Origin: Methylococcaceae bacterium
Lineage (GTDB): Bacteria > Pseudomonadota > Gammaproteobacteria > Methylococcales > Methylomonadaceae
Length of the DNA stretch: 37,386 nucleotides
Direction of reading: 5' to 3'
Assembly: GCA_005772825.1 (NCBI GenBank)
Contig: SXIP01000216.1
Location: 1-37,386 of the forward strand
A program made the position numbers and the translations under genes. Positions 2 through 36,631 of this stretch are shown here, piece after piece. Within the stretch, counting starts at the first letter, position 1, and every line of letters starts with the position of its first letter. The notes below the pieces were generated by a model, which saw nothing but the letters and a program-made list of their open reading frames with translations, had not been told where the DNA came from and did no database searches.

Positions 2-148
2 GGCTGGTTTGATACCGGTAGCGTAGTTCGCCCCGGCGATGAAATCCTGGTATTGCCCAAAGTCGACCAGAAATACCGCCAACTCTTCAAAGAAGTCTCC
101 ATGATGATTTATCAAATGGCTTTGGGCGCAAGGGTTATTCTGAAGTAA
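2..148 (+). CDS. C-terminus of a polysaccharide export protein (SLBB/KpsD-Wza type), partial
   Basis: An open frame enters from the left edge and stops at TAA 146-148, giving 48 residues that begin GWFDTGSVVRPGDEI and end in ALGARVILK. The pattern 'V-R-P-G-D-E-I-x-V-L-P-K-V-D', followed by a short helix and a hydrophobic end, resembles the last SLBB-type segment and tail of outer-membrane capsule export proteins of the KpsD/Wza/RkpU kind. Such proteins form the periplasmic and outer-membrane channel for capsule polysaccharide. The placement directly before an rkp-type cluster fits that role. Only the tail is visible, so the family call rests on a short motif and on context; another SLBB-containing exporter is possible. 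Confidence 0.55.
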   Translation, partial: GWFDTGSVVRPGDEILVLPKVDQKYRQLFKEVSMMIYQMALGARVILK

Positions 149-599: not shown

Positions 600-3500
600 A
601 TGCATAGACGCGTTGCAATCATAGCTTATTCAGTCCGTTTTCCAGGCACTGATACTCAAAACTTCTGGAACGATCTTCTGGCACAAAAAGACCTAGTTAC
701 GGAAGTTGATCCGGCACGCTGGTCTAAGCAAAGCCTCCTTCACCCGGATAAGCGTCATCCCGGCAGCAGTTATACCTTTGCAGCCGGCAGTCTTGGTGAC
801 ATATCTGCCTTCGATGCGGCTTTTTTTGGTATTTCTCCGCGCGAAGCCGCTCTTATGGATCCCCAGCAAAGACTGCTGCTTGAGCTTTCCTGGGAAACAT
901 TTGAAAACGCCGGCATTGTGCCGTCATCGTTACGTGGCAGCGACTGTGGTGTTTATATCGGTATCTCCAGCGTCGATTATGCCTATCGTCTGGCCGATGA
1001 TCTAGCTGCAATCGACTCTTCTGCGGCAACGGGTACTATCTCGAGTATTGCCGCAAACAGAATTTCCTATATATTTGACCTGCATGGCCCGAGTATTGCC
1101 ATGGACACGGCTTGCTCATCATCGCTGGTAGCTTTTCATCAGGCCTGTCAAGCCATCAGAACCGGTGAAATTTCCCAAGCTCTGGCAGGCGGCATAAACC
1201 TTCACCTGCATCCGTTCGGCTTTATTTCTTTTTCAAAAGCCACCATGTTGTCTAAAACCGGCCGCTGCCATGTATTTGATGAAGCAGGCGATGGTTATGT
1301 ACGGTCCGAGGGTGGCGGGTTATTCCTGCTCAAAGACTACAACCAAGCCGTGACGGACGGTGACCAGATTCTTGCCGTCGTTGCAGGTAGCGGAGTTAAT
1401 ACGGATGGTCATAAATCCGGCCTGACCATTCCCAACCCGTTGGCGCAAGCGTCGTTAATGTCGCGTGTTTATGAGCAGGCGGGTATTGATCCCGAAGCTA
1501 TAGACTATTTTGAAGCGCACGGCACCGGCACTGCGGTCGGTGATCCGATTGAAGCGCACGCTATCGGCATGGCGCTGGGACAAAAAAGAAAAAAACCGCT
1601 GTTAATCGGCTCTATTAAAAGTAATCTGGGCCATCTCGAATCTGCATCGGGTGTAGCCGGTCTTGCCAAGGTTCTAAGCTGTATTCAGCATCGCGCCGTA
1701 CCGGCAACAATCGGAATAAAAAACCCAAATCCGAACATCAAGTTCGACGACTGGAATATTGAAGTTGTAACCGAGGCAGTGGACCTGAAATCCGAGGGTA
1801 AACTGATTGTGGGTATCAATTCCTTTGGTTTTGGCGGCGCCAATGCCCATGTTATTCTTGAAAGCCACACTAAAACTCTGAAAAAGAGGGCCAAACAGAA
1901 AAAAAACCAGCTATTGCCACTGATTTTGTCATCAAAAGATATTCCAGGGCTGAGTCTGGCCGCTCAGGAACTTGCGAATTTTCTTGAAAGCGCTAACGAT
2001 GACGCGTTCTATGATATTGCCCATACCGCATTATTTCGTCGCGAGCAGCATCAACAATGCGCTGTTGTTTTTAGCCAAAATGCCAAAGACGCCGCGGATC
2101 AGCTGAAACGCTTTTCAGCCCAGGAGACGGTACAGGATAGCTCCGTCCACACAGGCATCCACCTAGACAATACCAATGGCCCCGCTTTTGTTTATTCCGG
2201 CAACGGCTGCCAATGGCAGGAAATGGGTAAACAGCTATTGGTAGAGTCGGCTATTTTTCGTCGCACCATTATCGAAATTGATGGACTATTCAGTCAATAT
2301 GCCGATTTCTCCTTACTGGATGAATTAAGCGGCCTTAACGGCAGCGGACGTTATCAATATACAGAAATCGCACAACCGGCATTATTCGCAGTCCAGGTAG
2401 GCATTAGCGAAATACTTCGGGAAAATGGCATTCGGCCAATCGCGGTAACCGGTCATAGCGTGGGCGAAGTCGCAGCGGCTTGGGCTTGCGGTGCGTTGTC
2501 CTTAGCGGAGGCGGTTAAAGTCATTTATTATCGCAGTCATTATCAGGGAAAAACCAAAGGTCAGGGACAAATGACCGCTATTGGCTTAAGCGAGCAGGAA
2601 ATTACGCCGCTTTTAAATGACCCTCGATTCAGTGACCTGCATCTGGCCGGTATAAACAGTAATCGTGGTGTTACCATTGCCGGCTCAGCGGAGCAATTAT
2701 CTTTGCTTGAAACCGAAATTGAAGCGCGCAATATTTTTTTCAAGCGTCTGGATCTTGATTATGCTTTTCATAGTCCGGCAATGGATGCCATCGAATCGGG
2801 TGTACGACTTGATCTTGCACAACTCGACGTTAAACAGCCGTCGATAGCCTTTTTTTCAACGGTCACCGGCGCCATTTTTCCTGATTCGGCAGTAGGACAA
2901 GGCCAATTGCTGGATGCCGAATACTGGTGGCATAATATCCGTCACCCCGTACTATTCCAGCAAGCATCGGCCGCCATGCTGAATACCGGGATTAGCACCT
3001 TTATTGAAATCGGCGGTCATCCGGTACTCCAGTCTTATCTTAAAGATTGCCTGAAAGCAGCGGATACCAAGGGTATCGTCATTCCCACCCTGATAAGAGG
3101 GAAAGACTCGGCAAATCAAGTCATGAGCAGCGTTGCGCAGGCGATTATGTCCGGCGCCGCTTTTGATCAAAAGCACTGGTTTCCGGTCCCCGGGCGCTTT
3201 GTCGAGCTGCCCAATTACGCTTGGCAACGAGAAAAACTCTGGCATACGGTAACTTCGGAATCGCACGGCTTGCTCACGCGGGAAAAAATTCATCCGCTGC
3301 TGGGTTACAAATTAAAGCAGCACGATAACCGCTGGGAAAACCAGTTGGATATTCAATTGTTGCCTTATTTGGCTGATCACAATGTGGGAGGCGCTGTCGT
3401 GTTCCCCGGCGCTGGTTTTGCCGAGATCGCGCTTGCTGCGGCTTTTTATAGCCATGCTGCCGACACTGTCGAGATTGAAGAGCTTGAAATACGCTCACCG

Positions 3501-6500
3501 CTGTTGCTCAGTAGCGAGCATAGCAAAGTTGTGCGATTTTCCCATGATGTTGCGGATGGACGCTTTATGCTGCGCAGCAGGGAATTTGCCGTCTCGTCGG
3601 AATGGTCGCCTCATATAGTTGGCCGGTTCATCGCCGAAGCCACAGGGCGCAAACTTGAAATCACCGCGCCAAATATTCCGGATCGCAGCCCGGATTTTGA
3701 TATAAACAGCCATGCTCAACTCACCGAGTATGCCGGCCTTCAATATGGCGATGCCTTCAAGGCAATCAGCCACGGCTGGACTGACCATAACAGTGCAGTG
3801 GCCGTTTTCAAGATTCCTGAATCGATTAGCGCGGAACTGGATCATTATTTCCTTCACCCTGCACTATTGGATTGTACTTTTCAACTGATCTTTCAGGTAC
3901 TTAAAGACGAAATTCATAAGCACGAAGGCATGGCCTTTGTTCCCACCAAGTTGGGCCGCATAAACTTGCGCACCAACAAGGCCGTCCCTCATAGCGCCAC
4001 AGCAACACTGTTGCATCGCTCACCCCACTCGCTCAATGCAGAATTTGCACTGTACGATAGCGACGGCAATACCATTGCCGTGCTCAACAATGTTCGCTTC
4101 CGCGCAGTCAGGCTGCACCGGCAACATGCACAACACTTGCATTACCTGGATTATCACCTGACAGCAGCCCCATTGGGTCAACAGCTTACGCCTGACAGAC
4201 ACCGGCTTCATAGCGCGTTGAGCAATGCCATCCAACAAACACACCAAGAAAGCGCCGGGCTTCGTTACAGCGAAGAAGTTGAACCCTTACTGGACAGTCT
4301 CTGCGCGCAGTTTGTCGTGGAAGCACTCAGAGATTTGAGTGATGGCGCCGGCTTCCTAGCGGAATCTTTTGTTAACACGCTTTATCAGACCAATCCCAAG
4401 TCAGCCGCATTGTTACGCTCCGCCATCTCCGTTGCCATCGAAAACCAGGCATTGAGTGTTGTAGATGGCGAGGGATGGCGGATCAATCAGGAGGCTTTAG
4501 CGCAAGACATCAGCGCCACTGAGATCTGGAATACCCTGGTTCAGGAATATCCTGATTATTTTTACCTGATAAATCTTACCGGTCGCATAGGGATATACCT
4601 GACCAATCTGATAAACGGCGACATCCAGGCCTCAGACTTGAGCCTGACACCTGCGCTCTACGCCCACATCAGCAGCCACATACTCGAACAGACCGGCAAA
4701 AAAACGCTGACTGACGTACTGATTAACGAGTGTACTCGAATCATACAAACACTACCTGCGGGTGAGCGGCTCAGTATCCTGGAAATCAGCTCGTACAAAC
4801 CCGAGTTTGCCGCCCTGCTTTGTTCGCAACTTGATTTCAACCAAAGTGATTACCGATTCGCCAGCCTTTGTGACAACGCAATAAACGCTGCCGAATCGTT
4901 ACATGAACGCTTTCCTTTGCTGCAAAGCACACGTATTCCGCCGGTTGACGCCAATAACCCCGAATCAACGTCGAATTTGCAGACAAGTCCGGCAAATTTT
5001 GCCATTGTTAACCTATCAACAATAAATCCTCAGGAAATCCATCATTTGCTCGCTCAGCTACCGACCATGCTGATTCCGGGCAGTCCGGTGATTTTTATCG
5101 GACAGCAACCCGCGCGCTGGATCGATATTGTATTGGGCGGTTCGGAGGGCTGGTGGATAGCACAAGATAGCGGCGAATTACTGTCGCCTCAATTATCGGC
5201 AAACCAGGTGGCAGAGCAACTGCAGGCACTTAATTTCCATGACACACAAACACTTGAGTTGATACCGGGCAGTTATTCGGGCACTTATCTCATTACAACC
5301 GGCATCGAGGATAAAACTGTCGAGTGTTCAGGTGACGGCAAAAACTGGCTCATACTCACCGGTCAATATGAACCCGAGAATAGCCTGGCGCAACGCATCG
5401 CAGGCCAACTCAAAGACAACGGCAATACGGTAGTATTGCAAAAATTGCAGGATAAGGGCTCAACGTTGCAAGAGCAGTTGATTAATGCAAAAGCGCAAGG
5501 CAAGCACTATGACCATATCATCCATCTGGCCGGATTCGGCCAGCATGACGCCTTCGTGCAAACAGAGCGCTGCTGGTTGGCGACCCAGGTTACCCAAGCT
5601 CTGGAAGCCACATCAATCCATGCAACATTATGGCTGTTGACCCATAACGTCGGCTCACTATTCCCCTGCGATCAGAGCAACACCGATTTAGCAGCCGACA
5701 GCATGCCTAATGATGCAGCGCTATGGGGATTTGGGCGCTCATTAATGAACGAAGCCTCAAACTATAGCATTAAATTATTGGACATCAGCGGCGCCAACTC
5801 CAGCGATTCCCTGCTTAAGGCGCTGATAACGGAACTGACACACGAAAATAGCGAGCAGGAAATTGTTTTCAACTCGGACGGCAAGCGCTTTGTCCCAAGA
5901 CTTCGCAATCAGGAAGTCCCCCGGATTCAACAACCACCGGCAGAGCAACAAACCTTGCGCTTGGGTTTCAAACTGCCCGGGCAGCTGCGCAATTTGCATT
6001 GGGAGAGTACGCCTGACCGATCCCCGGCTGACAATGAGATTGAAGTCGAAGTCAAGGCGACCGGATTGAATTTCCGTGACGTCATGTACACACTGGGTTT
6101 ATTGTCTGATGAAGCGGTCGAAAACGGTTTTGTCGGCCCGACGCTGGGCCTGGAGTTTGCCGGTATCGTCACACGCACCGGCAAGGACGTCAGCGCTTTT
6201 CAACCCGGCGACCATGTTGTAGGGCTAGGCCCTGCCAGTTTCAGCAACCGTGTTATCACACAAGCCAACGCTATTGCACTTATTCCCGATAAAATTGCAT
6301 TCGCGGCCGCCGCCACCATTCCAAGTACGTTTTTCACCGTCTATTATGCGCTGCACTATCAGGCACGATTACAAGCCGGCGAAAAAATCCTTATCCACGG
6401 TGCAGCGGGCGGCGTCGGCATAGCCGCAATCCAGATAGCGCAATGGTTGGGCGCGGAAATATACGCCACGGTCGGCTCCGAGGAAAAACGCGATTTTCTT

Positions 6501-8249
6501 CGCCTGATGGGCATCGAGCACATTCACGATTCCAGGTCGCTAAGTTTTGCCGAAGAAATCCTGGCGAAAACCAACAATAAAGGCGTCGATGTCGTTTTAA
6601 ATTCATTGGCCGGCGAAGCAATCAACCGAAATTTCCAGGTGTTGAAACCCTTTGGGCGCTTTCTTGAGCTGGGCAAACGCGATTTTTACGAAAACACACG
6701 CATTGGACTGCGCCCGTTTCGTAACAATATCAGTTACTTCGGCATTGACGCCGACCAGTTGATGCAAGAACGCCCGGCACTCACCCGTGAATTGTTCACC
6801 GACATGATGCAACTGTTCCATCAAGGCATACTGCATCCATTGCCTTACACCACCTTTGACGCCAATCAGGTTATCGATGCTTTCCGCTATATGCAGCAGT
6901 CCAGGCAAATCGGTAAAATTGTCGTCACTTATGATAACGGCATTCACGCAAAACCCGCCCCAAGTGAAAGCCCCAAGCAATACTTGACATTATCTCCCGA
7001 TGCCAGCTATCTGGTTACCGGCGGATTAGGCGGCTTTGGCTTAAGAACCGCTCAGTGGCTGGTCGAAAAGGGCGCCAGGCATCTCATTCTGATCAGCAGA
7101 ACCGGCCCTGCTACCGATGAAGCAAAAACAGCACTGGCAGCTTTTGCCGAACAGGGCGTCGCCGTGCATGCCGCCGCTTGCGATGTCACCGACAAAGCAA
7201 CGCTTAGCGCCCTGCTCGATCATTGTGACGCCGCAATGCCGCCGTTGAAAGGCATTATTCATTCAGCCACGGTCATTGATGACAGTCTGGTGCGGAACAT
7301 GGATCGGGACCAAATAAGCCGGGTTTTTGATCCTAAAATACAAGGCGCCTTGTATTTACATGAACTGACCCTGGACAAGTCACTCGATCTTTTTGTGATG
7401 TATTCTTCGGCCACAACGTTGTTCGGCAATCCCGGGCAGGCCAATTATGTCGCCGCCAACTTCTGGCTGGAAGGCCTGGCGTCAGCCAGACGGCAACAAG
7501 GCTTGCCGGCGACTTGCGTATGCTGGGGTGCGATTGATGATGTCGGTTTCCTGGCGCGCAATGAGAAACAAAAAGCGCTCCTGCAAAATCGGATGGGCGG
7601 TTCGGCGCTTGCTTCGGCAGCCGCATTAAATGCGCTTGAGCTTATCATGACCTCAGACAGCCGCACGTTAGGAGTCATGGAGTTTGACTGGCGCGCCTTA
7701 AGCAGCTTCCTGCCGACAGCCCGGTCACCGAAATTCCGTGAACTGGCCGTTCACACAAGCGATTCCGATAACAGCGATGACAATCGCGCCGATATGAAAC
7801 GCCTGCTTGACGAGCTCTCCGATGAGGCCTTGCAAAGCACTTTTATCGACATATTAAAAGAGGAATTGAGCCAGATACTGCTGGTTTCCAAAGAGAAAAT
7901 TGATCCTAACCATTCCATGTACGATATGGGCCTGGACTCACTGATGGGTGTGGAGTTGATGATCGCAATCGAATCACGCTTTGACGTCCAGATTCCCGTG
8001 ATGGCTTTAAGTGAAGCGCCTACGCTGAGCAAACTGGCGGAGCGATTGATTGCTCAACTGCGCGGTGAAAAAACCGCACCTGATGACAAGTCGGCAAATA
8101 CCCAGGCTCAAAACAACAAAGACAGCGCCGATATACTGGCGAGCATCAATGATCTGGCCAAGCGTCATGGCTCCGATGTTACACAAACCCAAATTGATGC
8201 GTTGACTGAGGATCTAAAATCCGGCGCCAGCGTCAGGATGATCAGCTGA
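600..8249 (+). CDS. rkpA: RkpA-like type I polyketide/fatty-acid synthase (KS-AT-DH-[inert MT/psi-KR]-ER-KR-ACP)
   Basis: This 2549-residue iterative synthase should build a fully reduced acyl chain on its own ACP. Visible domains in order: ketosynthase ~1-425 with Cys172 (DTACSSSL), His307 (EAHGTGT) and His345 (KSNLGHLE); acyltransferase ~525-840 with Ser620 in GHSVGE and His724 in YAFH, suggesting malonyl use; dehydratase ~890-1180 with His927 and Asp1091; a long stretch ~1240-1770 containing what look like an inactive methyltransferase and a structural KR half; enoylreductase ~1790-2108 with HGAAGGVG near 1934; ketoreductase ~2135-2315 with GGLGGFG at 2141 and Tyr2283; ACP ~2414-2485 with Ser2447 in GLDSLM. 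There is no thioesterase: the protein ends in a ~60-residue polar tail, so the chain must be released by another enzyme, most simply the next gene product one base downstream. Size, domain order and neighbours match RkpA of Sinorhizobium meliloti, needed for K-antigen capsule. A heterocyst-glycolipid or PUFA-like synthase is less likely because of the kpsS-like neighbour. Confidence 0.85.
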   Translation: MHRRVAIIAYSVRFPGTDTQNFWNDLLAQKDLVTEVDPARWSKQSLLHPDKRHPGSSYTFAAGSLGDISAFDAAFFGISPREAALMDPQQRLLLELSWETFENAGIVPSSLRGSDCGVYIGISSVDYAYRLADDLAAIDSSAATGTISSIAANRISYIFDLHGPSIAMDTACSSSLVAFHQACQAIRTGEISQALAGGINLHLHPFGFISFSKATMLSKTGRCHVFDEAGDGYVRSEGGGLFLLKDYNQAVTDGDQILAVVAGSGVNTDGHKSGLTIPNPLAQASLMSRVYEQAGIDPEAIDYFEAHGTGTAVGDPIEAHAIGMALGQKRKKPLLIGSIKSNLGHLESASGVAGLAKVLSCIQHRAVPATIGIKNPNPNIKFDDWNIEVVTEAVDLKSEGKLIVGINSFGFGGANAHVILESHTKTLKKRAKQKKNQLLPLILSSKDIPGLSLAAQELANFLESANDDAFYDIAHTALFRREQHQQCAVVFSQNAKDAADQLKRFSAQETVQDSSVHTGIHLDNTNGPAFVYSGNGCQWQEMGKQLLVESAIFRRTIIEIDGLFSQYADFSLLDELSGLNGSGRYQYTEIAQPALFAVQVGISEILRENGIRPIAVTGHSVGEVAAAWACGALSLAEAVKVIYYRSHYQGKTKGQGQMTAIGLSEQEITPLLNDPRFSDLHLAGINSNRGVTIAGSAEQLSLLETEIEARNIFFKRLDLDYAFHSPAMDAIESGVRLDLAQLDVKQPSIAFFSTVTGAIFPDSAVGQGQLLDAEYWWHNIRHPVLFQQASAAMLNTGISTFIEIGGHPVLQSYLKDCLKAADTKGIVIPTLIRGKDSANQVMSSVAQAIMSGAAFDQKHWFPVPGRFVELPNYAWQREKLWHTVTSESHGLLTREKIHPLLGYKLKQHDNRWENQLDIQLLPYLADHNVGGAVVFPGAGFAEIALAAAFYSHAADTVEIEELEIRSPLLLSSEHSKVVRFSHDVADGRFMLRSREFAVSSEWSPHIVGRFIAEATGRKLEITAPNIPDRSPDFDINSHAQLTEYAGLQYGDAFKAISHGWTDHNSAVAVFKIPESISAELDHYFLHPALLDCTFQLIFQVLKDEIHKHEGMAFVPTKLGRINLRTNKAVPHSATATLLHRSPHSLNAEFALYDSDGNTIAVLNNVRFRAVRLHRQHAQHLHYLDYHLTAAPLGQQLTPDRHRLHSALSNAIQQTHQESAGLRYSEEVEPLLDSLCAQFVVEALRDLSDGAGFLAESFVNTLYQTNPKSAALLRSAISVAIENQALSVVDGEGWRINQEALAQDISATEIWNTLVQEYPDYFYLINLTGRIGIYLTNLINGDIQASDLSLTPALYAHISSHILEQTGKKTLTDVLINECTRIIQTLPAGERLSILEISSYKPEFAALLCSQLDFNQSDYRFASLCDNAINAAESLHERFPLLQSTRIPPVDANNPESTSNLQTSPANFAIVNLSTINPQEIHHLLAQLPTMLIPGSPVIFIGQQPARWIDIVLGGSEGWWIAQDSGELLSPQLSANQVAEQLQALNFHDTQTLELIPGSYSGTYLITTGIEDKTVECSGDGKNWLILTGQYEPENSLAQRIAGQLKDNGNTVVLQKLQDKGSTLQEQLINAKAQGKHYDHIIHLAGFGQHDAFVQTERCWLATQVTQALEATSIHATLWLLTHNVGSLFPCDQSNTDLAADSMPNDAALWGFGRSLMNEASNYSIKLLDISGANSSDSLLKALITELTHENSEQEIVFNSDGKRFVPRLRNQEVPRIQQPPAEQQTLRLGFKLPGQLRNLHWESTPDRSPADNEIEVEVKATGLNFRDVMYTLGLLSDEAVENGFVGPTLGLEFAGIVTRTGKDVSAFQPGDHVVGLGPASFSNRVITQANAIALIPDKIAFAAAATIPSTFFTVYYALHYQARLQAGEKILIHGAAGGVGIAAIQIAQWLGAEIYATVGSEEKRDFLRLMGIEHIHDSRSLSFAEEILAKTNNKGVDVVLNSLAGEAINRNFQVLKPFGRFLELGKRDFYENTRIGLRPFRNNISYFGIDADQLMQERPALTRELFTDMMQLFHQGILHPLPYTTFDANQVIDAFRYMQQSRQIGKIVVTYDNGIHAKPAPSESPKQYLTLSPDASYLVTGGLGGFGLRTAQWLVEKGARHLILISRTGPATDEAKTALAAFAEQGVAVHAAACDVTDKATLSALLDHCDAAMPPLKGIIHSATVIDDSLVRNMDRDQISRVFDPKIQGALYLHELTLDKSLDLFVMYSSATTLFGNPGQANYVAANFWLEGLASARRQQGLPATCVCWGAIDDVGFLARNEKQKALLQNRMGGSALASAAALNALELIMTSDSRTLGVMEFDWRALSSFLPTARSPKFRELAVHTSDSDNSDDNRADMKRLLDELSDEALQSTFIDILKEELSQILLVSKEKIDPNHSMYDMGLDSLMGVELMIAIESRFDVQIPVMALSEAPTLSKLAERLIAQLRGEKTAPDDKSANTQAQNNKDSADILASINDLAKRHGSDVTQTQIDALTEDLKSGASVRMIS

Positions 8250-8250
8250 C

Positions 8251-9579
8251 ATGGCTAATAAAAGTCTTTCGGGGCAATTAAAAGACAAACTCATTCAACA
8301 GGCGCTCGAACGTAAACTGAAAAAAAACGAGCAATCCGAACTACCGGTAATCAACCCGCTGCAAACAACACGCGTTGATATTCCTGAATCGCTCTACCGT
8401 TTTGATCAGCATGCCGGCTATAAACAGATGCAGATCATGCATAAAGGCGCCACTCAATTGGGCATTCCGAGCCCTTTTTTTCGGATTCATGACGGCATAG
8501 CCGCAGCCACTACGGAAATCGGTGGTCGGCAATACATCAATTACGCCAGCTATAATTATCTCGGTTTATCGGGCGATGCCAGAGTGTCGAACGCCGCCAT
8601 AGAGGCTGTTCAGCGATACGGCACTTCGGTATCGGCTAGTCGGTTGGTTTCAGGAGAAAGGCCAATTCACAGACAGCTGGAAGCAGCCATAGCGGAAACA
8701 TACGGCGTTGACGATGCAATCGTCATGGTCAGCGGTCACGCCACCAACGTCACCACCATCGGTTACCTATTCGGCGCCCGCGACCTGATCCTGCATGATG
8801 AACTGATCCATAACAGCACGCTGATCGGTGCGCAATTATCCGGCGCCCGGCGTCTGTCTTTTCCGCATAATGATTACAACGCGCTGGACAAATTACTGTC
8901 CGAACAGCGACGTAACTATGAGCGTGTGCTGATTGTCATTGAAGGCCTTTACAGCATGGACGGCGACTTCCCGGACTTGCCCCGCTTCATTGAACTGAAG
9001 AACCGGCATCGCGCCTTTTTAATGGTCGATGAGGCCCACTCATTCGGCGTCATGGGTGAAAATGGCCTCGGGATACGCGAGCACTTCGCTATTGAAGGCA
9101 AAGCGGTTGATATATGGATGGGCACGCTCAGTAAATCATTGGCCGGCTGCGGCGGCTTTATTGCCGGCGAATCGGCACTGGTCGAACACCTGAAATTTTT
9201 GGCGCCCGGCTTTCTTTACAGCGTGGGCATGCCGCCCCAAGTCGCTGCACCCGCCCTCGCGGCGCTCAATATCATCAGAAACGAACCACAACGAGTCAAA
9301 CAGCTGCAGGCGCGCTCGCAATATTTTCTAACCAAGGCCAAAGCCGCCGGCATCGACACTGGGCACAGCCAGGGCATAGCCATTATCGCTGCGATAACAG
9401 GCAGCTCCATCAGTGCGGCCCGCCTGTCACAGGCGCTTTTTGAACGCGGCATCAACGTACAACCGATCTTGTACCCCGCCGTTCCTGAAAAAAGCGCACG
9501 CCTCAGATTTTTCATCTGCTCCGACCATACCGAAGAACAAATAGATTTTACTATTCAGGCTTATTGTCAGGAACAGTAA
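8251..9579 (+). CDS. rkpG: RkpG-like PLP-dependent alpha-oxoamine synthase
   Basis: This 442-residue fold-type I aminotransferase belongs to the alpha-oxoamine synthase family (BioF, KBL, serine palmitoyltransferase). The PLP lysine is Lys295 in GTLSKSLAGCGG, and the pyridine-binding Asp260 and His263 lie in VDEAHSFGVMG. The N-terminal ~60 residues, lysine-rich at first, extend beyond the ~385-residue BioF length and could contact the ACP of the synthase. The start codon lies one base after the synthase stop, so the two are translationally linked. The family joins an acyl thioester to an amino acid with loss of CO2; here it could off-load the ACP-bound chain as a long-chain amino-ketone. S. 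meliloti RkpG is the closest functional parallel I know. A biotin role is unlikely because no other bio gene is present. The actual amino-acid substrate cannot be read from the sequence. Confidence 0.8.
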   Translation: MANKSLSGQLKDKLIQQALERKLKKNEQSELPVINPLQTTRVDIPESLYRFDQHAGYKQMQIMHKGATQLGIPSPFFRIHDGIAAATTEIGGRQYINYASYNYLGLSGDARVSNAAIEAVQRYGTSVSASRLVSGERPIHRQLEAAIAETYGVDDAIVMVSGHATNVTTIGYLFGARDLILHDELIHNSTLIGAQLSGARRLSFPHNDYNALDKLLSEQRRNYERVLIVIEGLYSMDGDFPDLPRFIELKNRHRAFLMVDEAHSFGVMGENGLGIREHFAIEGKAVDIWMGTLSKSLAGCGGFIAGESALVEHLKFLAPGFLYSVGMPPQVAAPALAALNIIRNEPQRVKQLQARSQYFLTKAKAAGIDTGHSQGIAIIAAITGSSISAARLSQALFERGINVQPILYPAVPEKSARLRFFICSDHTEEQIDFTIQAYCQEQ

Positions 9580-9843
9580 GAAATTGCATCATATAACCTC
9601 CTTGCATTGACTACGCCTTGATAGGGGCATCGATTCGACATCATCGGCGCTCATGCAGGAGTGGTCTACTTCTGAAACAATTGAAACAACAATCCGCATA
9701 CAACAGAAATGGTTTGGAAACATTCATACCTCATACTGCCTTCCGACCCGATAACAAAGGAAAAACCAACACCATCAACCAGAGGCATCGATAAGCTCAT
9801 ACAATTCCGCAGTTGCATCGGGCTATTTCTTAACTAGGAACGT

Positions 9844-9938
9844 GCATGAAATACCTTGGAAACTTGTCCCCTCTCCCTCCGGGAGAGTGTTAGGGAGAGG
9901 GAATCAAATGATCAAGTTATTTTATGCACATTCCTTAA
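9844..9938 (+). repeat. Intergenic repeat, copy 1 (CCCTCTCCC/GGGAGAGGG palindrome)
   Basis: A ~95-bp element whose core CCCTCTCCCTCCGGGAGAG is followed by GTTAGGGAGAGGG and can fold on itself; it ends with CACATTCCTTAA. A second copy in the same orientation lies at 13535-13630. Together they bracket the rkpJ-, rkpH- and rkpI-like genes. Confidence 0.7.
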
Positions 9939-9957
9939 CGGCAGAGACCTTTTTACC

Positions 9958-11190
9958 TTGAACACTAAACGACGATCTTTTCTTTTTCTACAGGGCCCAA
10001 GCTCGCCATTATTCGCTCGCTTGGCCGATAAACTGCATATTGATGGTCACTCTGTACATAAAATAAGCTTTAATTGCGGCGATATCGCCTATTGGCTACC
10101 GCGTCAGTCGATCCTGTTTCGCCGGGAACTGAAAGACCTGCCCGAATTTCTTGAGTCTGTCTGGTTAAAATACGGCATTACCGATCAGATCCTGTTTGGT
10201 GATTGCAGGCCGGTACACAGATCCGCCATTACCCGTGCGGAAGCGTTCGGTATCCGCACCCATGTGTTTGAAGAGGGATATTTTCGCCCGCACTGGGTAA
10301 CGCTTGAGCGTGAAGGCGTGAACGGGCATTCATTACTGCCGAGAGATCCTGACTGGTTCCGGGATGTAGGCAAAGACCTTCCCGAACCGGCGCCTGCCGT
10401 TGCCTTCCAGTCCCCATTTACCACCCGGGCCACGCATGATGTGCTTTATCATGTGGCCGGCATCGGCAATCTATTCGTTTTTCCCCATTACAGAACCCAC
10501 GCTCTCGTGACCGCCCCGATAGAGTATGCGGGTTACATCAGGCGCTTGTCTCTTCTCAGGATCTGGAAATACCGGGATAAAAAAGTCATCCGAAACCTGT
10601 TAAACAGCAAGGCCCGCTACTACCTGCTGCCGCTACAACTAAATAGCGATTCCCAGATTCGTGATCACTCCCGGTTTGAAAACATGACCGAAGTAATCGA
10701 ATATGTCATGACCTCTTTCGCACGACATGCCCCTCGCGATTCACGTCTGGTCATTAAAAATCACCCTCTGGACGCGGGCCTGGTGAATTACCAAAAAACC
10801 ATCCGACAATTTGAGATACTGTTCGCTCTTGAAGGACGCGTTATTTATCTTGAGTCGGGCGACCTGGAACCGCTACTGAAACAGGCCGCAGGAACGGTCA
10901 CGCTGAACAGCACCGTAGGCGGGCTCTCACTTGAACTCAATTGCCCGACCATTGCACTCAGCGATCCGATCTATAATTTGCCGGGCCTGACCTTTCAGGG
11001 CGGACTCGATGCATTCTGGTTACAGGCGTCAAAACCCGAAGCAGAGCTGTACCATTGCTATCGCAACACAGTGATGTACACCACGCAAATCAACGGTGGT
11101 TTATACAGCAAAAAATCAATTGACCTGACCATCCAAAACGCCGCCCGTTTTCTTGAAGCCGACCAATCCCCGCTGGAACAACTGTTATGA
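9958..11190 (+). CDS. rkpJ: KpsS/RkpJ-like capsule polysaccharide biosynthesis protein (Kdo transferase family)
   Basis: A 410-residue protein of the KpsS/LipB/RkpJ family. KpsS is known to place the first beta-Kdo on the lipid anchor of group 2 capsules at the inner face of the cytoplasmic membrane. Diagnostic stretches are FLFLQGPSSPLFARLA at the N-terminus, FGDCRPVHRSAI, HVFEEGYFRPHW, VKNHPL-type KNHPLD, and the C-terminal TLNSTVGGLSLELN. I chose the TTG at 9958 because it begins right before the conserved N-terminus and has AGAGA at 9943-9947 upstream. The frame stays open back to a TTG at 9856, but that extension runs through the palindromic repeat at 9844-9938 and gives an arginine- and serine-rich leader foreign to the family. 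The stop overlaps the next start as ATGA, so translation is coupled to the dehydrogenase gene. Confidence 0.8.
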   Translation: MNTKRRSFLFLQGPSSPLFARLADKLHIDGHSVHKISFNCGDIAYWLPRQSILFRRELKDLPEFLESVWLKYGITDQILFGDCRPVHRSAITRAEAFGIRTHVFEEGYFRPHWVTLEREGVNGHSLLPRDPDWFRDVGKDLPEPAPAVAFQSPFTTRATHDVLYHVAGIGNLFVFPHYRTHALVTAPIEYAGYIRRLSLLRIWKYRDKKVIRNLLNSKARYYLLPLQLNSDSQIRDHSRFENMTEVIEYVMTSFARHAPRDSRLVIKNHPLDAGLVNYQKTIRQFEILFALEGRVIYLESGDLEPLLKQAAGTVTLNSTVGGLSLELNCPTIALSDPIYNLPGLTFQGGLDAFWLQASKPEAELYHCYRNTVMYTTQINGGLYSKKSIDLTIQNAARFLEADQSPLEQLL

Positions 11191-11960
11191 AGCCCACCAA
11201 ACCGCAAACCATCCTGATCACCGGCGCGACCGGCGCAATAGGCGGCGCGCTGGCCCGCTACTACGCCGCACCCGGTGTTTGCCTGATACTGCATGGCCGG
11301 AATGCCGCGCATCTGGATGAAACAGCCGCACATTGCAGAGCCGCAGGCGCCGAAGTCTCGACAATACAACTGGATTTGCGCGACATCCCGGCCTTACAAA
11401 AAAAGCTGGCTGAAATAGCCGCCGAGCGCTTGCCCGATCTGGTCATCGCCAATGCCGGCGTCAACATCAATACCGGAGAGAACAGAGCCGGAGAACAGTG
11501 GGATGACATTGAAGCGCTGCTCGATATTAATATCAAAGCCACCTTCGCCCTGGTCAACAGCCTGATTCCCGCCATGCGCCAAAGAGGCAGCGGGCAGATC
11601 GCGCTGATCAGCTCGCTCGCCGCCTATTACGGACTGCCGGTTACACCCAGCTACAGCGCCAGCAAAGCGGCAATCAAGACCTATGGCGAAGGCCTGCGCG
11701 GCTGGCTGGCCCATGACGGCATACAAGTCAATGTCGTCATGCCGGGTTATGTGGAATCCGCCATGTGTCACGCGATGCCCGGTCCAAAACCTTTTTTATG
11801 GACGCCGGAAAAAGCTGCCGGATTTATCGCCCGCGGACTGCAACAAAACAAGGCCAGGATCAGCTTCCCCTTCCCGCTCAATATCGGCACCTGGTTTCTT
11901 GCGGTACTACCTCCATCCTGGTCGGAACGCATTCTGCTGTTACTGAACTACGGCGGCTGA
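11187..11960 (+). CDS. rkpH: RkpH-like short-chain dehydrogenase/reductase
   Basis: A 257-residue classical SDR. The NAD(P)-binding TGATGAIG is at residues 12-19, NAG at 89-91, and the catalytic Ser142/143, Tyr156 and Lys160 lie in ISSLAAYYGL and SYSASK. The length is typical of the family. It starts within the stop of the kpsS-like gene (4-bp overlap) and ends one base before the rkpI-like gene. In S. meliloti the equivalent RkpH is needed for K-antigen. Placed beside an alpha-oxoamine synthase, its simplest role is to reduce the 3-keto group of the amino-ketone, as 3-ketosphinganine reductase (itself an SDR) does. That substrate assignment is inference; a sugar-modifying role is the main alternative. 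Confidence 0.75.
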   Translation: MKPTKPQTILITGATGAIGGALARYYAAPGVCLILHGRNAAHLDETAAHCRAAGAEVSTIQLDLRDIPALQKKLAEIAAERLPDLVIANAGVNINTGENRAGEQWDDIEALLDINIKATFALVNSLIPAMRQRGSGQIALISSLAAYYGLPVTPSYSASKAAIKTYGEGLRGWLAHDGIQVNVVMPGYVESAMCHAMPGPKPFLWTPEKAAGFIARGLQQNKARISFPFPLNIGTWFLAVLPPSWSERILLLLNYGG

Positions 11961-11961
11961 C

Positions 11962-13533
11962 ATGGATGCACTACTTTTATTGATGCCGCCGGTATTGGCC
12001 GGATTAATCGCGTCCTTTCTATTCGAACCCTTCCTGGAACCGAAACCCTCGCCGATAAGGCAACGCTCATTATCGTCACTGCTGATACATATCGGCACAT
12101 GGCTATTGCTGTTCGCCGTTATGTTATTGTTATTCCGCCGTCCCTGGTTCGCCGTCGTCATTATCGGCGCCATCCAGCTACTGTTATTGCTGGTTCATCA
12201 AGCCAAGTATTTCAGCCTGCGCGAGGCTTTTATCTTCCAGGATTTTGAATACTTTACCGATGCCATCAAGCATCCGCGCCTATACCTGCCATTTTTCGGC
12301 GTAGCCCGTACCATAGCCGCGACCATTGGCTTTATCGGTGCCTTAATCGTCGGCATGTTAATGGAAACCCCGCTGACGGAAACGATTGCCCTACCCTTGT
12401 TAGCCTCGCTATGGTTTGTCATGCTGGCTTGCGGCTTGCTGCTGATCCGGCTGGGCCTGAAAAATTGCCCGCCTATTTCCTGCGACCCCGGCAAAGATTT
12501 GTACAGCATGGGCCAGATACCGTTTTATTGGGCCTATTGGCAAGAAGAAAAACGCGTCAGAGAAATAGACCTGAGCGGCAGCCCTTTCCAAAATCCGCCT
12601 GAACCTGCCGATGACACGAAACGGCCCCATATCGTCGTCGTGCAAAGCGAGTCATTTTTTGATCCGCGCCCCCTGTCGAACAACATCAAACCAACTGTAT
12701 TAACCCACTTTGACCGGATAAAAACCGAGTCCGACTACCACGGACGTTTGCAGGTACCGGCCTGGGGCGCCAATACCGTGCGCACCGAATGCGCATTTCT
12801 CAGCGGCCTGCCGCCCGATCAACTGGGCATTCATCGCTTTAACCCCTACCGTTTGCTCGCCGGGCAAGGCATCCCGACGCTCGCCAGCCATCTCAAACAA
12901 CGCGGCTACCGAACAGTCTGCATACACCCCTACCCTGCCGGCTTCTATCTGCGTGACCGGGTATTCCCACGCCTGGGTTTTGATCAATTTATAGACATCA
13001 ACAGCTTTGACGCGCAGCAAAAAAGCGGTCAATACATCGGCGATCTTGCCGTGGCCGACAAGATCAACGAACTGTTAGCGGCTCAGGACGCTAACCAACC
13101 CGTGTTTATCTTTGTGATCACAATGGAAAACCACGGCCCGCTGCATCTTGAGCAATCTAATCCCGACGATCATGCGGTTTTTTATCATCAAGCACCCCAT
13201 GCCGGTTGCGAAGACCTGACCGTGTACCTGCGTCATTTAAACAATGCCGATCTGATGATAGAGCGTCTCAAGGAAGGCTTGCTGCATTCCCGCTTAGGCC
13301 ATGATAACGAGACAACCCCGGAAAAAGCCCGCGAAGGCATTCTATGCTGGTATGGCGACCATGTTCCGATCATGGCCACTGTCTATGCGCAATTAGGTGA
13401 ACCCGACGGAGACACGGACTACTTTATCTGGAAAACAGCCCGGCCTGATGCAAACTCAGAGGCTGGCGATAAAACCGTTTGCGCTCACGAACTGGCGGCG
13501 CTGATGCTTGGCATAGTGAATACTTTGGAATGA
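11962..13533 (+). CDS. rkpI: RkpI-like membrane sulfatase / LTA-synthase-type phosphotransferase
   Basis: A 523-residue protein with about four to five membrane segments in the first ~165 residues and a C-terminal alkaline-phosphatase/sulfatase-superfamily domain of the LtaS/MdoB kind. Metal-site and nucleophile motifs are visible: Glu230 in VVQSESFFDP, Thr272 in ANTVRTECAFLSG, MENHGP at 388-393, and Asp466-His467 in WYGDHVP. These enzymes transfer a phosphoglycerol or phosphoethanolamine group from a phospholipid on the outer face of the membrane, so here a head group could be attached to the capsule lipid or polysaccharide. It begins one base after the dehydrogenase stop. S. meliloti RkpI is the positional counterpart; its chemistry is, to my knowledge, not settled, so the reaction is inference. 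Confidence 0.75.
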   Translation: MDALLLLMPPVLAGLIASFLFEPFLEPKPSPIRQRSLSSLLIHIGTWLLLFAVMLLLFRRPWFAVVIIGAIQLLLLLVHQAKYFSLREAFIFQDFEYFTDAIKHPRLYLPFFGVARTIAATIGFIGALIVGMLMETPLTETIALPLLASLWFVMLACGLLLIRLGLKNCPPISCDPGKDLYSMGQIPFYWAYWQEEKRVREIDLSGSPFQNPPEPADDTKRPHIVVVQSESFFDPRPLSNNIKPTVLTHFDRIKTESDYHGRLQVPAWGANTVRTECAFLSGLPPDQLGIHRFNPYRLLAGQGIPTLASHLKQRGYRTVCIHPYPAGFYLRDRVFPRLGFDQFIDINSFDAQQKSGQYIGDLAVADKINELLAAQDANQPVFIFVITMENHGPLHLEQSNPDDHAVFYHQAPHAGCEDLTVYLRHLNNADLMIERLKEGLLHSRLGHDNETTPEKAREGILCWYGDHVPIMATVYAQLGEPDGDTDYFIWKTARPDANSEAGDKTVCAHELAALMLGIVNTLE

Positions 13534-13786: not shown

Positions 13787-14584
13787 TCAACCTAGGGCAA
13801 GACGGAAACCGATGTCGAGGTCACGGTAGCCGGGCACGCCCCTGCTGCGGTTAGCAGAACGCGTGTACCAGGCGAGGCGGGACCAGGAACCGCCTCGCAA
13901 CACACGGTGAACGCCCTGCTTCGGCCCAATCGGATCGGGCACCGATTCCACCGGATAATCTCCAAACCAATCCGCACACCACTCATAAACATTGCCGTGC
14001 ATTTCATAGAGTCCCCAACGATTTGAAGGTAACGATTTGACCGGCACCGTTTTTCCCCGATACAGCCCTTTTTTACCTTCAGCATAGGGGTAGTTGCCGT
14101 CATAGTTAACCTGCTCCGGCGTAATATTATCACCGAACGAAAACGGTGTATTTTCCCCTGCCCGGCATGCGTATTCCCATTCGGCTTCGCTCGGCAAGCG
14201 GGCGTTCAAAGACGGGAACATTGCGTTTAAGCGTTCAAGAAAAAGTTGAACGTCGTCCCAACTGACGGTTTCCACGGGATTATCGGGATTATCCTGAAAC
14301 CGGCTGGGGTTACTACCCATGACAGCCTGCCAAAGCACCTGAGTACAGGCGGTATCGGCCAGCCAAAAACCTTTTGTTAACGTGACTTGATGTTGGGTTT
14401 CATCGTCGTAACGCTCCGCTTCTGTTTCCGACGAACCCATCATAAACGTACCGGGGGGCAGCCACCGAAACCATTGGCGGACGCCGTTAACCTCCAAAAT
14501 CATGAACAGGCCATAAGCCCGGTCTTCGCCCCATTCAGAAGCCCAGGGCGCAGGGAATCGAGGTGGCAATAATGCAGGGTTCAT
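13787..14584 (-). CDS. Stand-alone FGE-sulfatase (C-type-lectin-fold) protein with a putative DGR variable region
   Basis: A 265-residue protein made almost wholly of one formylglycine-generating-enzyme-like domain: PPGTFMMGS, the LPSEAEWEYACRAG block, GLYEMHGNVYEWCADWFGD, RVLRGGSW and a final GFRLALG. The two cysteines used by true sulfatase-activating FGE near the C-terminus are absent, so a binding role is more likely than catalysis. It is a paralogue of the last third of the 15965-18646 product. DNA similarity continues past its stop: a CGA codon in the longer gene corresponds to the TGA stop here, so this copy has lost the Gly/Ser-rich tail. The 26 codons at 13808-13885 form a variable segment. 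There is no ATPase or vWA part, so it may work with the operon at 15965-21586 or be a spare target. Confidence 0.8.
   Translation of the reverse strand: MNPALLPPRFPAPWASEWGEDRAYGLFMILEVNGVRQWFRWLPPGTFMMGSSETEAERYDDETQHQVTLTKGFWLADTACTQVLWQAVMGSNPSRFQDNPDNPVETVSWDDVQLFLERLNAMFPSLNARLPSEAEWEYACRAGENTPFSFGDNITPEQVNYDGNYPYAEGKKGLYRGKTVPVKSLPSNRWGLYEMHGNVYEWCADWFGDYPVESVPDPIGPKQGVHRVLRGGSWSRLAWYTRSANRSRGVPGYRDLDIGFRLALG
13808..13885 (-). other. Putative DGR variable region VR1
   Basis: Against the equivalent 78 nt at 16112-16189, which align without gaps, I count 29 differences: 13 at first, 12 at second and only 4 at third codon positions. Many changed codons end in C in both copies (for example TCC/CAC, CGC/AAC, CTC/TAC, GGC/AAC, GAC/TTC), as expected if AAC codons of a template were mutated at adenines. 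Flanking RGGSW, TRSA and IGFRLA are conserved. Just upstream, differences are mainly third-position, as in ordinary genes. Confidence 0.75.
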
Positions 14585-18653: not shown

Positions 18654-19607
18654 TTACGTACTGGCTTTGCGATAAACGAAACGGCGCAAAATGCTCAGCA
18701 ATTCAAGCTGTTCCTTTTCCGTTGTCGCCATGCCGCTAATGGCTCTGAGCAAATCAAGGTATTCGGCCTGTCCGGGTCTGGGTTGTCCCGGTTCGACAGC
18801 GTTGCGGTCTTCAACCAATAATTCCGCGGCGCGTTGACGCACATCGGCGCTGCACAGATCAGCAAAATGTACTTCACCGCGACGGCACAGGAATTCAATC
18901 AAGTCATCTTTATTGTCGGGCAGCGTCAACGGCAGCACCAAACAACGGCGGACGAAGGCTGCCGGTAATTCGCGTTCTTCATTGGTGGTAATCACAACCA
19001 GCGGCGCGGGGACTTCAGTCTCCCGGCACACCGAACCACCCATATAGGGCACTTTAAAATCACCGTTACCCAAGGTCTCCAGGAGGCTATTCGGTAAATC
19101 GGTATCGGCTTTGTCGATTTCGTCAATCAACAACACACTGCCTTGACCGGGTTCCCAGCCTTCGGGTCTATCTGGAACCGGATCACTTGGATTGCTGCAA
19201 TACTTGAACTGTGCTTCAGCGGAATGCCAGTTCAACGCCCACCACAGCGGGCCGGGGCTGAGAAAGCGCGCCGGCTCCAAACGGCTAAGCCGCTCCGAGT
19301 CCGGCACCGAAGCCATAATCTGCGCCTCGCCCAGGCGCGCCACGGCATCGAATTTCCATTGCAAGTCTTCGCATTCGGTGCGCGCGTTCACAACCACGGA
19401 TAAAAACAAGCGGCCTGTCGCTACCGCCGCCGCCCGCGCCAATTGGCTTTTGCCGGTGCCGGGTTCGCCGCGCAACAATAAAGGCCGACCGGCGGCTTCC
19501 GCGGCCATCAGCGCGTAGCCGTGTTGTTCTTCGAAGAGATGGGTGCTTTCTGGCCAGGAGCCTAGTTTGGGGAGAGTTAGGGGATTGCTGGTAGAATAAA
19601 GTGTCAT
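18654..19607 (-). CDS. MoxR-family AAA+ ATPase
   Basis: A 317-residue AAA+ protein: Walker A GEPGTGKS at 47-54, Walker B VLLIDEIDKA at 158-167, sensor-1 region ITTNEER with Asn210, and an arginine pair at 221-222. Length and motif order fit the MoxR/RavA group, which act as chaperones for vWA-domain partners. The start codon overlaps the phosphoesterase stop (ATGA, 19604-19607) and the vWA-FGE gene follows after seven bases, so all three are made together. An insertion around residues 125-155 between the Walker motifs contains the tryptophan-rich LWWALNW stretch. In conflict systems of this kind the ATPase would remodel or release the vWA protein when the sensor is engaged; that role is inferred from context. 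Confidence 0.85.
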   Translation of the reverse strand: MTLYSTSNPLTLPKLGSWPESTHLFEEQHGYALMAAEAAGRPLLLRGEPGTGKSQLARAAAVATGRLFLSVVVNARTECEDLQWKFDAVARLGEAQIMASVPDSERLSRLEPARFLSPGPLWWALNWHSAEAQFKYCSNPSDPVPDRPEGWEPGQGSVLLIDEIDKADTDLPNSLLETLGNGDFKVPYMGGSVCRETEVPAPLVVITTNEERELPAAFVRRCLVLPLTLPDNKDDLIEFLCRRGEVHFADLCSADVRQRAAELLVEDRNAVEPGQPRPGQAEYLDLLRAISGMATTEKEQLELLSILRRFVYRKAST

Positions 19608-36200: not shown

Positions 36201-36631
36201 GGGAGACTGGGTTGCATTACAATTACTTCAGGAATTATGAGCCGGAGGTAGGGCGGTATATTGAGAGTGATCCGATTGGGTTAAAGGGAGGGACGAATAC
36301 CTTCGCTTATGCTAATCAAAATCCATTGATATACATTGATTCTTTAGGGCTTTGTCCTGCCTGTGGTCCAAATATTACTTGTTATGCTTGTGGTCAGAAA
36401 ATTAAATGTGTTGCTGGACAAACACCACCGCCTCAAGGATGTTTGCCGATGAATGGGCCTCTTTCGCCGTTACCACTTAGTGGATTGTCTTGTGATGCAC
36501 AATGTAATACTGTGGTTGGAATCGTTTGTGGTGCCGCAGCAACAAGAGGAGGAATTCCCGCTTGGCTTGCCTGTAAGGCATCTGTATACGGGGCTTGCAA
36601 GCTTTCGTGTGACAATAACTGTAAAAAATAG
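33236..36631 (+). CDS. RHS/YD-repeat protein, large C-terminal part with RHS core and Cys-rich tip
   Basis: 1131 residues are open from here. Dozens of YD repeats (YDxxGxL/xxxxD patterns such as YDALNRLIHSIDPNNG) build the RHS shell. The RHS-associated core ~920-1035 includes DHLNTPRVILNSAHTP, WRWDSDAFG, LRFPGQYYDRETGLHYNYFR and RYIESDPIGLKGG. After DSLGL comes a 92-residue tip with 13 cysteines (CPACGP, CYACGQ, CNTVVGIVCG, KLSCDNNC). In intact RHS toxins this tip is the variable effector. The GTG at 33236 has no ribosome site and lies inside the repeat region, so this is the remainder of a longer gene beginning at 32119. The tip DNA is clearly more AT-rich than the shell, a usual sign of tip exchange. 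I do not recognise the tip family. Confidence 0.8.
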   Translation: MIAPRPGLLIRISNAYGRSLQFSYNSNGQLATLTDPAGGIYSYAYTDPAAFDNLTAFTYPNGSIRRYVYNESAYLPPVSATVPNPLYPHALTGIIDENNVRYATFAYDSQGRAVSSQHIGTVNNVSGQAVERYSFYYTAAGNTTVANPLGAMHSYNFSSIVKTPRITGTNQPGGAGCNAADNAVSYDTNGNIISRTDFNGNRTTYTYDLTRNLETSRTEGLTAAGSTTAATRTITTEWHPALRLPVKITQPGQETRWVYNEHGHVIEKTRTDTATGLSRTWTTSYSYSASVPGAVQQKTEDGPRTDVNDVTITDSYPPDALCTGGHLGCRGQISQLTNALGQITQISRYNAHGQPEQTIDANGLVTTLAYDGRQRLISRSTGSETTQLAYDNQGQVTQLTRPDGSTLNYSYDGAHRLTQLSDSLGNAIRYTLDAMGNRIREDRYDPSNQLSQTQRREYDQLNRLAKSIGADNQTTQYGYDAQGNLSDQSDPLGHATGHDYDALNRLIHSIDPNNGHTTNNLDARDNLIAVTDPRNNTTHYSYDGLNNLIGEISPDRGALSYSYDAAGNQITRTDARGSVHTTSYDALNRPILKTHSSAEGIPPTADITWTYDQGDNGIGRLTQMTDESGHTTYSYDPYGRLITKTQTTTINSDSQSHTLQYSYDSAGRLHQQTLPSGLQITTSYDAQGQISALTLNGQPLLSTIAYQPFGQPKSWTWSNGEIYTRSFDSDGRIAAYPLAPDTRNLTYDAAGRITAYSHSTATNNRSFDYDALDRLTAEISPSGSQAYSYDANGNRTGIALDTTPYSYSIDAISNRLLSTAGPIANTYSYDATGNSTGDGHATYRYNAAGRLSQAVTSSTTTNYYYNGIGERVIKSGPSLTNGPHRYVYDPSGHLIGEYDSNNTARQETIWLGDTPVAVVKPDPVTQQPLVYFIEADHLNTPRVILNSAHTPVWRWDSDAFGLGQPDEDPDSDGQAFEYNLRFPGQYYDRETGLHYNYFRNYEPEVGRYIESDPIGLKGGTNTFAYANQNPLIYIDSLGLCPACGPNITCYACGQKIKCVAGQTPPPQGCLPMNGPLSPLPLSGLSCDAQCNTVVGIVCGAAATRGGIPAWLACKASVYGACKLSCDNNCKK

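Follow-up and report, generated by a model that had tools for sequence, protein, structure and literature searches.

A probable polyketide synthase-to-sphingoid operon and its proposed role in capsule anchoring in a methane-oxidising bacterium

We analysed a 37,386-nucleotide stretch of DNA from a Methylococcaceae bacterium (contig SXIP01000216.1 of assembly GCA_005772825.1; hereafter the window), which carries at positions 600-13533 of the + strand five genes in one direction, encoding a polyketide synthase (PKS), an alpha-oxoamine synthase (AOS), a KpsS-type transferase of 3-deoxy-D-manno-octulosonic acid (Kdo), a short-chain dehydrogenase/reductase (SDR) and an LtaS-like membrane protein. 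That this gene set is real as described is practically certain, and we judge it fairly likely that the five genes together supply a sphingolipid-type anchor on which an ABC-transporter (group 2-like) capsule is carried. The chemistry of the lipid is well supported; its use as a capsule anchor we infer. An earlier note on this DNA had named all five genes, with a fully reducing synthase devoid of thioesterase at their head, and had interpreted them as a PKS-to-sphingoid-like lipid pathway for capsule anchoring, an interpretation that the present analysis supports.

In the pathway that we propose, the iterative PKS/fatty acid synthase (FAS) would assemble malonyl units into a long acyl chain, straight and saturated, and hold it on its own acyl carrier protein (ACP). 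The AOS would free this chain by a decarboxylative condensation with L-serine, dependent on pyridoxal phosphate (PLP), to give 3-keto-sphinganine, which the SDR would reduce to sphinganine. The LtaS/GacH-like protein would then move one glycerol-phosphate, most likely from phosphatidylglycerol (PG), to the 1-hydroxyl, yielding phosphoglycerol-sphinganine, a look-alike of lyso-PG that is proposed to replace it because it would present the same glycerol-phosphate end. KpsS would add the first beta-Kdo to the glycerol and KpsC would extend it, the polysaccharide being built on the Kdo-primed lipid and exported by KpsMTED.

The first two steps and the sphinganine product have a precedent in homologous proteins of Pseudomonas. 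In P. fluorescens MYb115, sgaA (PKS) and sgaB (AOS) make C24, C26 and C28 sphinganines, purified PfSgaB is almost exclusively serine-specific, reduction of the ketone is presumably the task of the SDR SgaC, and +154-Da derivatives, assigned by mass only, are most likely phosphoglycerol-sphingolipids (PMC12134224). These data bear out the PKS-fed, sphinganine-like chemistry of the earlier note, turn its 'sphingoid-like' lipid into a concrete product class and name the head group. In the MYb115 cluster, too, the AOS, of the same type as here, follows a monomodular iterative PKS, and a KDSR-like SDR lies at a distance of a few genes. Its PKS, AOS and SDR locus tags (RS19805/19800/19775) are spaced as those of a capsule locus on a Pseudomonas plasmid (L043; RS26445/26440/26415), where a gene of the lipoteichoic acid (LTA) synthase family stands beside the SDR and KpsS follows; from this numbering we infer that MYb115 has the same neighbours. 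Capsul, rkp, wcb and polysaccharide have 0 matches in the text of PMC12134224, in which KpsS and the head-group enzyme are likewise unmentioned.

Operon layout and linkage to capsule export

The window, contig C208, belongs to a metagenome-assembled genome of 3.7 Mb that is 77% complete. Two strong matches there to PF02461 (AMO/pMMO family; E 3.5e-129), probably pmoA, indicate a methane oxidiser, and its neighbours in the AOS tree point to the class Gammaproteobacteria. The AOS gene begins at 8251, 1 nt past the PKS stop, in agreement with the earlier note, and the SDR and KpsS genes share 4 nt. KpsS, however, does not abut the AOS: a non-coding gap of ~0.3 kb separates them, in which the sequence reveals a hairpin (9868..9901) resembling repetitive extragenic palindromic (REP) elements. 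Pieces of this gap recur on contigs C286, C24 and C23 at 74-80% identity, and in the closest relative (L029) AOS and KpsS abut, with no such gap.

At its start (2..148, + strand), the window holds the 3' end of a gene for capsule export (Poly_export/SLBB, KpsD/Wza-like). The rest of this gene is on contig C16, the end of which shares with the window start an exact 141-bp overlap. Across this join and in the same direction, C16 carries an ABC-2 permease (ABC2_membrane), an ABC ATPase (ABC_tran), a 373-aa gene without Pfam match that is KpsE-like by position, and the Poly_export/SLBB protein. The overlap thus puts an ABC-type exporter directly upstream, and the lipid genes follow the capsule export operon, which, together with KpsS within the operon, supports the link to capsule drawn earlier.

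The KpsS-type Kdo transferase (9958..11190, + strand; frame open from 9856, likely start TTG 9958) matches PF05159 with 269 bits against a cut-off of 20 and the equivalog NF050054 with 288 bits, below its cut-off of 600; a sequence search against solved structures returned no match. KpsC sits elsewhere in the genome, on contig C259, as a 697-aa frame with two Capsule_synth repeats. Its neighbours there (L051:6428-14881), three sulfotransferases, glycosyltransferases and an epimerase, suggest a sulfated capsule in a methane oxidiser.

The E. coli/Neisseria group 2 anchor pathway shares with this genome, where KpsC lies apart from the operon, a KpsS-type Kdo transferase, KpsC and ABC export; it has no PKS, AOS or LtaS-like gene. 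Its acceptor is lyso-PG, whereas the one proposed for the window is a sphingoid, which KpsS would have to glycosylate; the E. coli enzyme acts on (lyso-)PG (PMC7694667).

The PKS and release of its chain

The PKS gene (600..8249, + strand) encodes a 2549-aa iterative, fully reducing type I PKS/FAS of the RkpA/WcbR/SgaA type, as judged from domains and motifs. On this strand follow each other a ketosynthase (KS; 606..2030) with C171, HGTGT and KSNLGH, its C/H/H residues intact; an acyltransferase (AT; 2187..3158) with GHSVGE and YAFH, malonyl-type by these motifs; a dehydratase (DH) double hotdog (3291..4112) with HxxxGxxxxP and DxxxQ; a non-catalytic insert (4113..5975), identified by model and motif, in which a degenerate C-methyltransferase (C-MT) fold precedes a structural part resembling a ketoreductase (KR); an enoyl reductase (ER; 5976..6929) and a KR (7002..7538), both with intact NADPH sites; and the ACP (7851..8048), with GLDSL and a 66-aa tail behind it. 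For the 620-aa stretch between DH and ER, modelled with pLDDT 85, Foldseek gave the CurJ C-methyltransferase as best match (E 4.8e-18), with the psi/KR region of human FAS lower in the ranking. Its S-adenosylmethionine (SAM) motif I is degenerate in 27/27 aligned PKSs; a straight saturated chain is therefore expected and a branched methylated one disfavoured.

Domain and motif analysis of the 2549 aa revealed no thioesterase or reductase (TE/R) release domain, and another factor must therefore free the chain. With its full reducing loop, its ACP, its inactive C-MT and no TE/R, the protein belongs to the iterative FAS-like PKSs without thioesterase. The monomodular swf PKS family of sponges was discarded as a counterpart, having other partners (reductase-sulphotransferase, radical SAM) and resembling WcbR/RkpA only moderately (PMC3908369).

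The AOS (8251..9579, + strand), a 442-aa protein of the RkpG/WcbT/SgaB clade with an N-terminal extension of ~80 aa, has an intact active site (PLP lysine K295; DEAH motif with D260/H263). Its nearest solved proteins are serine palmitoyltransferases (SPTs; E 2e-64). It scores below the cut-offs of the SPT profiles NF047599, NF047600 and NF047603 (271/500, 294/640 and 201/670 bits, score/cut-off) and of the BioF profile TIGR00858 (346.6 bits; cut-off 426.45); a separate AOS on contig C243 scores as BioF, with 468 bits. In a maximum-likelihood tree the window AOS falls in its own clade (support 100/99), apart from BioF and SPT/KBL-like rows, together with S. meliloti RkpG, and its 14-row subclade (100/98) includes Pseudomonas SgaB-type rows, which serve as proxies for MYb115 SgaB, the sequence of the latter being outside the tree. 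Curated cut-offs and tree rule out a BioF or canonical SPT identity; the enzyme may, by its sequence, work like an SPT though not classed as one.

Its relatives were sampled as the 80 best matches in genome_contigs. A PKS is adjacent to the AOS in 52/80 of them and fused to it in 8/80 (60/80 together), and the AOS protein itself carries an ACP motif in 13 of the remaining 20, while in one more the motif is in the adjacent upstream frame. Around 20 control AOS loci, four of which were checked and are three BioF and one SPT-like, neither PKS nor KpsS nor LtaS-like gene was found within ~10 kb (0/20); the ACP-motif scan covered the relatives, not the controls. The hypergeometric probability for relatives versus controls (~1e-11) illustrates the contrast only, since the sample consists of the 80 best matches and related loci are not independent. 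Fusions confirmed with Pfam in the AOS clade comprise FAAL-ACP-AOS (FAAL, fatty acyl-AMP ligase; two Planctomycetota loci), ACP-AOS (Corallococcus), KS-AT-ACP-AOS (Ectobacillus) and KS-AT-AOS (Kitasatospora), and Planktothrix and Streptomyces plasmid loci have PKS and AOS in a single protein. By the ACP-AOS wiring seen in fusions and adjacency, this family probably works on ACP-bound chains. On this wiring, release of the ACP-bound chain from the PKS by the AOS, as put forward in the earlier note, is very probable; use of an acyl-CoA unrelated to the PKS, which that note had named as what would refute it, is unlikely given the ACPs in cis.

The Planctomycetota FAAL-ACP-AOS fusions (L095:7775-11248, L125:7985-11395), near which no capsule genes were found, probably lead from free fatty acid to sphingoid-type lipid. 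Single-protein PKS-AOS fusions (L122:6326-11212, L120, L123, L124, L126, L127, L049, L046) span Bacillota, Actinomycetota, Myxococcota and Cyanobacteriota, with no LtaS-like or KpsS gene nearby. In the fungal PKS-AOS pathways (fumonisin, sphingofungin), likened here by their description in PMC12134224, the AOS also frees the PKS chain and a KDSR reduces the product, but these are secondary metabolites/mycotoxins unrelated to capsule.

Serine is quite likely the co-substrate in this organism. Condensation of the chain with glycine or alanine, to a deoxy-type amino-alcohol with the phosphoglycerol on another position or acceptor, appears very unlikely to us: amino-acid choice does vary among AOS enzymes, and the window AOS is below all the curated cut-offs given above, but its nearest solved relatives are SPTs, a deoxy base would have no 1-hydroxyl for the head group, PfSgaB is serine-specific (PMC12134224), and close Pseudomonas relatives share a well-supported clade with the window enzyme. 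The 3-keto-sphinganine thus favoured would be the substrate of the SDR (11187..11960, + strand), a predicted 3-ketosphinganine reductase of the SgaC/RkpH type with intact Y156 and K160, which, with the example of PfSgaC (PMC12134224), upholds the keto reduction earlier assigned to it.

The LtaS-like enzyme and the head group

The last gene of the operon (11962..13533, + strand) encodes a 523-aa membrane phosphoglycerol transferase of the GacH/LtaP/LtaS superfamily (RkpI-type) with an alkaline-phosphatase-superfamily domain. By sequence its nearest solved proteins are GacH (8.5e-11) and the LTA primase LtaP (2e-9), and the fold search with its model (pLDDT 86.5) puts GacH with sn-glycerol-1-phosphate first and LtaP next; MdoB is a more distant match (4.5e-3), which makes the MdoB side of the former LtaS/MdoB-like description the weaker one. 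Seven residues invariant across 18 homologues (E230, T272, H322, R331, H391, D466, H467) align with Glu-263, Thr-307, His-353, Arg-362, His-422, Asp-481 and His-482 of Listeria LtaS (LtaSLm), with identical spacing (H-R 9, R-H 60 residues), and in LtaSLm these residues bind metal and phosphate (PMC4192460). This GacH/LtaP-type catalytic site accords with the head-group addition proposed earlier.

A comparison by eye showed no second glycerol-phosphate (GroP) site (Ser-486, Asn-488, His-489 of LtaSLm), the protein reading VPIMATVYA after D466-H467; a single phosphoglycerol transfer, primase-like and without polymer, is therefore predicted, and a polymerising LtaS was rejected. LtaP is also without a second GroP site, and the Thr, metal and phosphate ligands are common to GacH, LtaP and the window protein, which differs from the former two in its predicted sphingoid acceptor and predicted cytoplasmic catalytic domain. 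An arylsulfatase with nearby activators resembling formylglycine-generating enzyme (FGE) was also discarded, the nucleophile being Thr272 in an LtaS/GacH-type site, with no Cys/Ser CxPxR motif.

We consider it likely that this phosphoglycerol transferase acts on the sphingoid. It might instead attach glycerol-phosphate to the capsule after its export, or to some other periplasmic glycan, in the manner of GacH, its closest solved relative, which decorates a polysaccharide. The usual position of LtaS-family catalytic domains, outside the cytoplasm (PMC4192460), would suit such a role, yet we find it improbable: the gene accompanies the lipid genes and KpsS from genus to genus, irrespective of the polymer genes, a probable phosphoglycerol-sphinganine exists in MYb115 (PMC12134224), and the charge pattern puts the domain on the KpsS side. 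In 22/22 homologues the loops of the catalytic side hold 8-20 Lys/Arg versus 0-4 on the opposite side, a contrast of ~2.4-fold after loop-length normalisation, the charge pattern being a weak rule. Read from the sequence in this way, a cytoplasmic catalytic domain is slightly favoured and, if true, lifts the topological conflict with KpsS.

Co-occurrence in other genomes and the capsule role

All five genes occur together in S. meliloti (L042), on the Pseudomonas plasmid (L043) and in Paraburkholderia (L044), Methylobacterium (L047) and Shinella (L048); Caballeronia (L045) has four of the five, KpsS being absent from the stretch read. The arrangement is not chance, since it recurs in other genera and classes and is absent from the 20 control AOS loci. 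With PKS, AOS, SDR, LtaS-like gene and KpsS together, linked to an ABC-type capsule export locus, the window cluster is a further member of the known rkp/wcb/sga type. The S. meliloti rkp-1 region (rkpA, G, H, I, J) contains counterparts of all five genes and a polysaccharide export gene, but there the SDR and LtaS-like genes precede KpsS; its AOS is 46% identical to that of the window, and its LtaS-like protein, unannotated in S. meliloti, 25%. In the Burkholderia wcb capsule I, wcbR, homologous to rkpA, lies within the capsule cluster (PMC3908369). The Paraburkholderia and Caballeronia loci share PKS, AOS, SDR and LtaS-like genes with the window but carry, between PKS and AOS, an LpxC-like deacetylase absent from it (L044:14037-14951, L045:14030-14956), and L044 also has a GNAT acetyltransferase gene behind the AOS; these genes possibly modify the sphingoid amine. 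On the Pseudomonas plasmid a phytanoyl-CoA-dioxygenase-family gene (L043:16384-17427) adjoins the AOS.

Among 184 other gammaproteobacterial genomes, the AOS clade is present in 5 and a strong LtaS-like match in 3, with an overlap of 3 (p ~1e-5); PF05159 is present in these three and not in the two without LtaS-like gene. The LtaS-like gene is found in 24/41 named AOS genomes, all 24 with a non-fused, proteobacterial AOS, and in 0/7 of the genomes tested with a fused AOS.

A search from the LtaS-like gene retrieved two Novosphingobium plasmids with KpsS, LtaS-like, SDR and fatty-acid-hydroxylase-type genes, and neither PKS nor AOS in the plasmid context read around these modules. Sphingomonads make sphingolipids with their own SPT. 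Novosphingobium is a sphingolipid-producing genus, and in N. pentaromativorans US6-1 delta-rsh two AOS/SPT genes go up together with the KpsS gene WP_052118064 (PMC6163740), which is the KpsS of the Novosphingobium plasmid locus itself. In Acidisoma the stretch read contains AOS, SDR, hydroxylase, KpsS and LtaS-like genes but no PKS. The head-group/KpsS module thus persists without PKS where the sphingoid base comes from elsewhere, as a sphingoid anchor predicts. The hydroxylase-type genes (L162:14261-14878, L163:14322-14846, L050:13277-13822; ~51-64% mutual identity), found among the loci read only in PKS-less versions of the module, may hydroxylate the sphingolipid. LtaS-like genes on Roseomonas plasmids (L161, L164) were negative in a search for the motif G..T.R[ST]E, have no capsule or lipid genes nearby and were not counted as support.

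These distributions bear on the possibility that the sphinganine-type lipid made by PKS, AOS and SDR stays free, in the membrane or as a secondary metabolite, the capsule being carried by ordinary lyso-PG as in E. coli and the genes being mere neighbours. A lyso-PG anchor is also what the earlier note had named as refuting its reading. The same AOS clade does occur, fused to a PKS or to FAAL-ACP, in organisms that have neither KpsS nor LtaS-like genes, but KpsS, SDR and LtaS-like genes travel together even where PKS and AOS are missing, and in the window KpsS lies inside the operon with the exporter directly upstream. From the title of Muller 2009, rkp-1 is reportedly needed for secretion of the Kdo capsule in S. 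meliloti. S. fredii rkpH mutants, moreover, make no K-antigen capsular polysaccharide (KPS; PMC8227245). On the other side stand the sphinganines of MYb115, which accumulate free and act on C. elegans (PMC12134224), and (lyso-)PG as the known acceptor of E. coli KpsS (PMC7694667). On balance a free lipid is unlikely in our view.

Several observations weigh against the sphingolipid-type capsule anchor that we prefer. The S. meliloti 1021 anchor is reported, with reference to Fraysse 2005, only as a 'phospholipid anchor'. The LtaS-like gene or KpsS is missing from the PKS-AOS genomes G028, G064, G152, Rhizobium sp. Leaf306 and Azorhizobium; the PKS-AOS unit therefore also serves other products, and the AOS family has at least two purposes, its capsule type being marked by KpsS and LtaS-like genes. 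Catalytic domains of the LtaS family usually lie outside the cytoplasm (PMC4192460), in which KpsS acts. Finally, sgaAB induction in MYb115 raised free sphinganines, not phosphoglycerol-sphinganines (PMC12134224).

Besides the operon, the window encodes on the - strand two FGE-sulfatase proteins (formylglycine-generating-enzyme-like; 13787-14584 and 15965-18646), of which the larger adjoins an AAA ATPase (18654-19607) followed by a calcineurin-like phosphoesterase (19604-21586), and near the contig end a protein with 14 RHS repeats (33236-36631).

A capsule role of rkpA/wcbR has been recognised without a defined lipid, and PKS-derived sphingolipids of Pseudomonas have been reported without a capsule; no statement linking a PKS-derived sphingolipid to a capsule anchor was found in the literature searched, which left out most subscription papers, key rhizobial ones included. 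Joining the rkp/wcb and sga findings would assign a specific reaction to each gene, explain the reported phosphoglycerol-sphinganines and predict a second chemical class of capsule anchor, a mechanism that, if right, is new for group 2-like capsules. We give an even chance to the broader proposal that many Gram-negative capsules, in Sinorhizobium, Burkholderia relatives, Pseudomonas, Bordetella, Halomonas and methanotrophs, are carried by phosphoglycerol-sphinganine, not lyso-PG, with a chain from the FAS-like PKS and a head group from a cytoplasm-facing LtaS-type enzyme, and that sphingomonads use the same module with housekeeping sphinganine. If true, sphingolipid synthesis would be much commoner in bacteria than has been thought and would chiefly serve capsule display. 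The anchor model would give a function to capsule genes long known from root-nodule bacteria, and it bears on nodulation, on the capsules of several Gram-negative genera and on the prevalence of bacterial sphingolipids.

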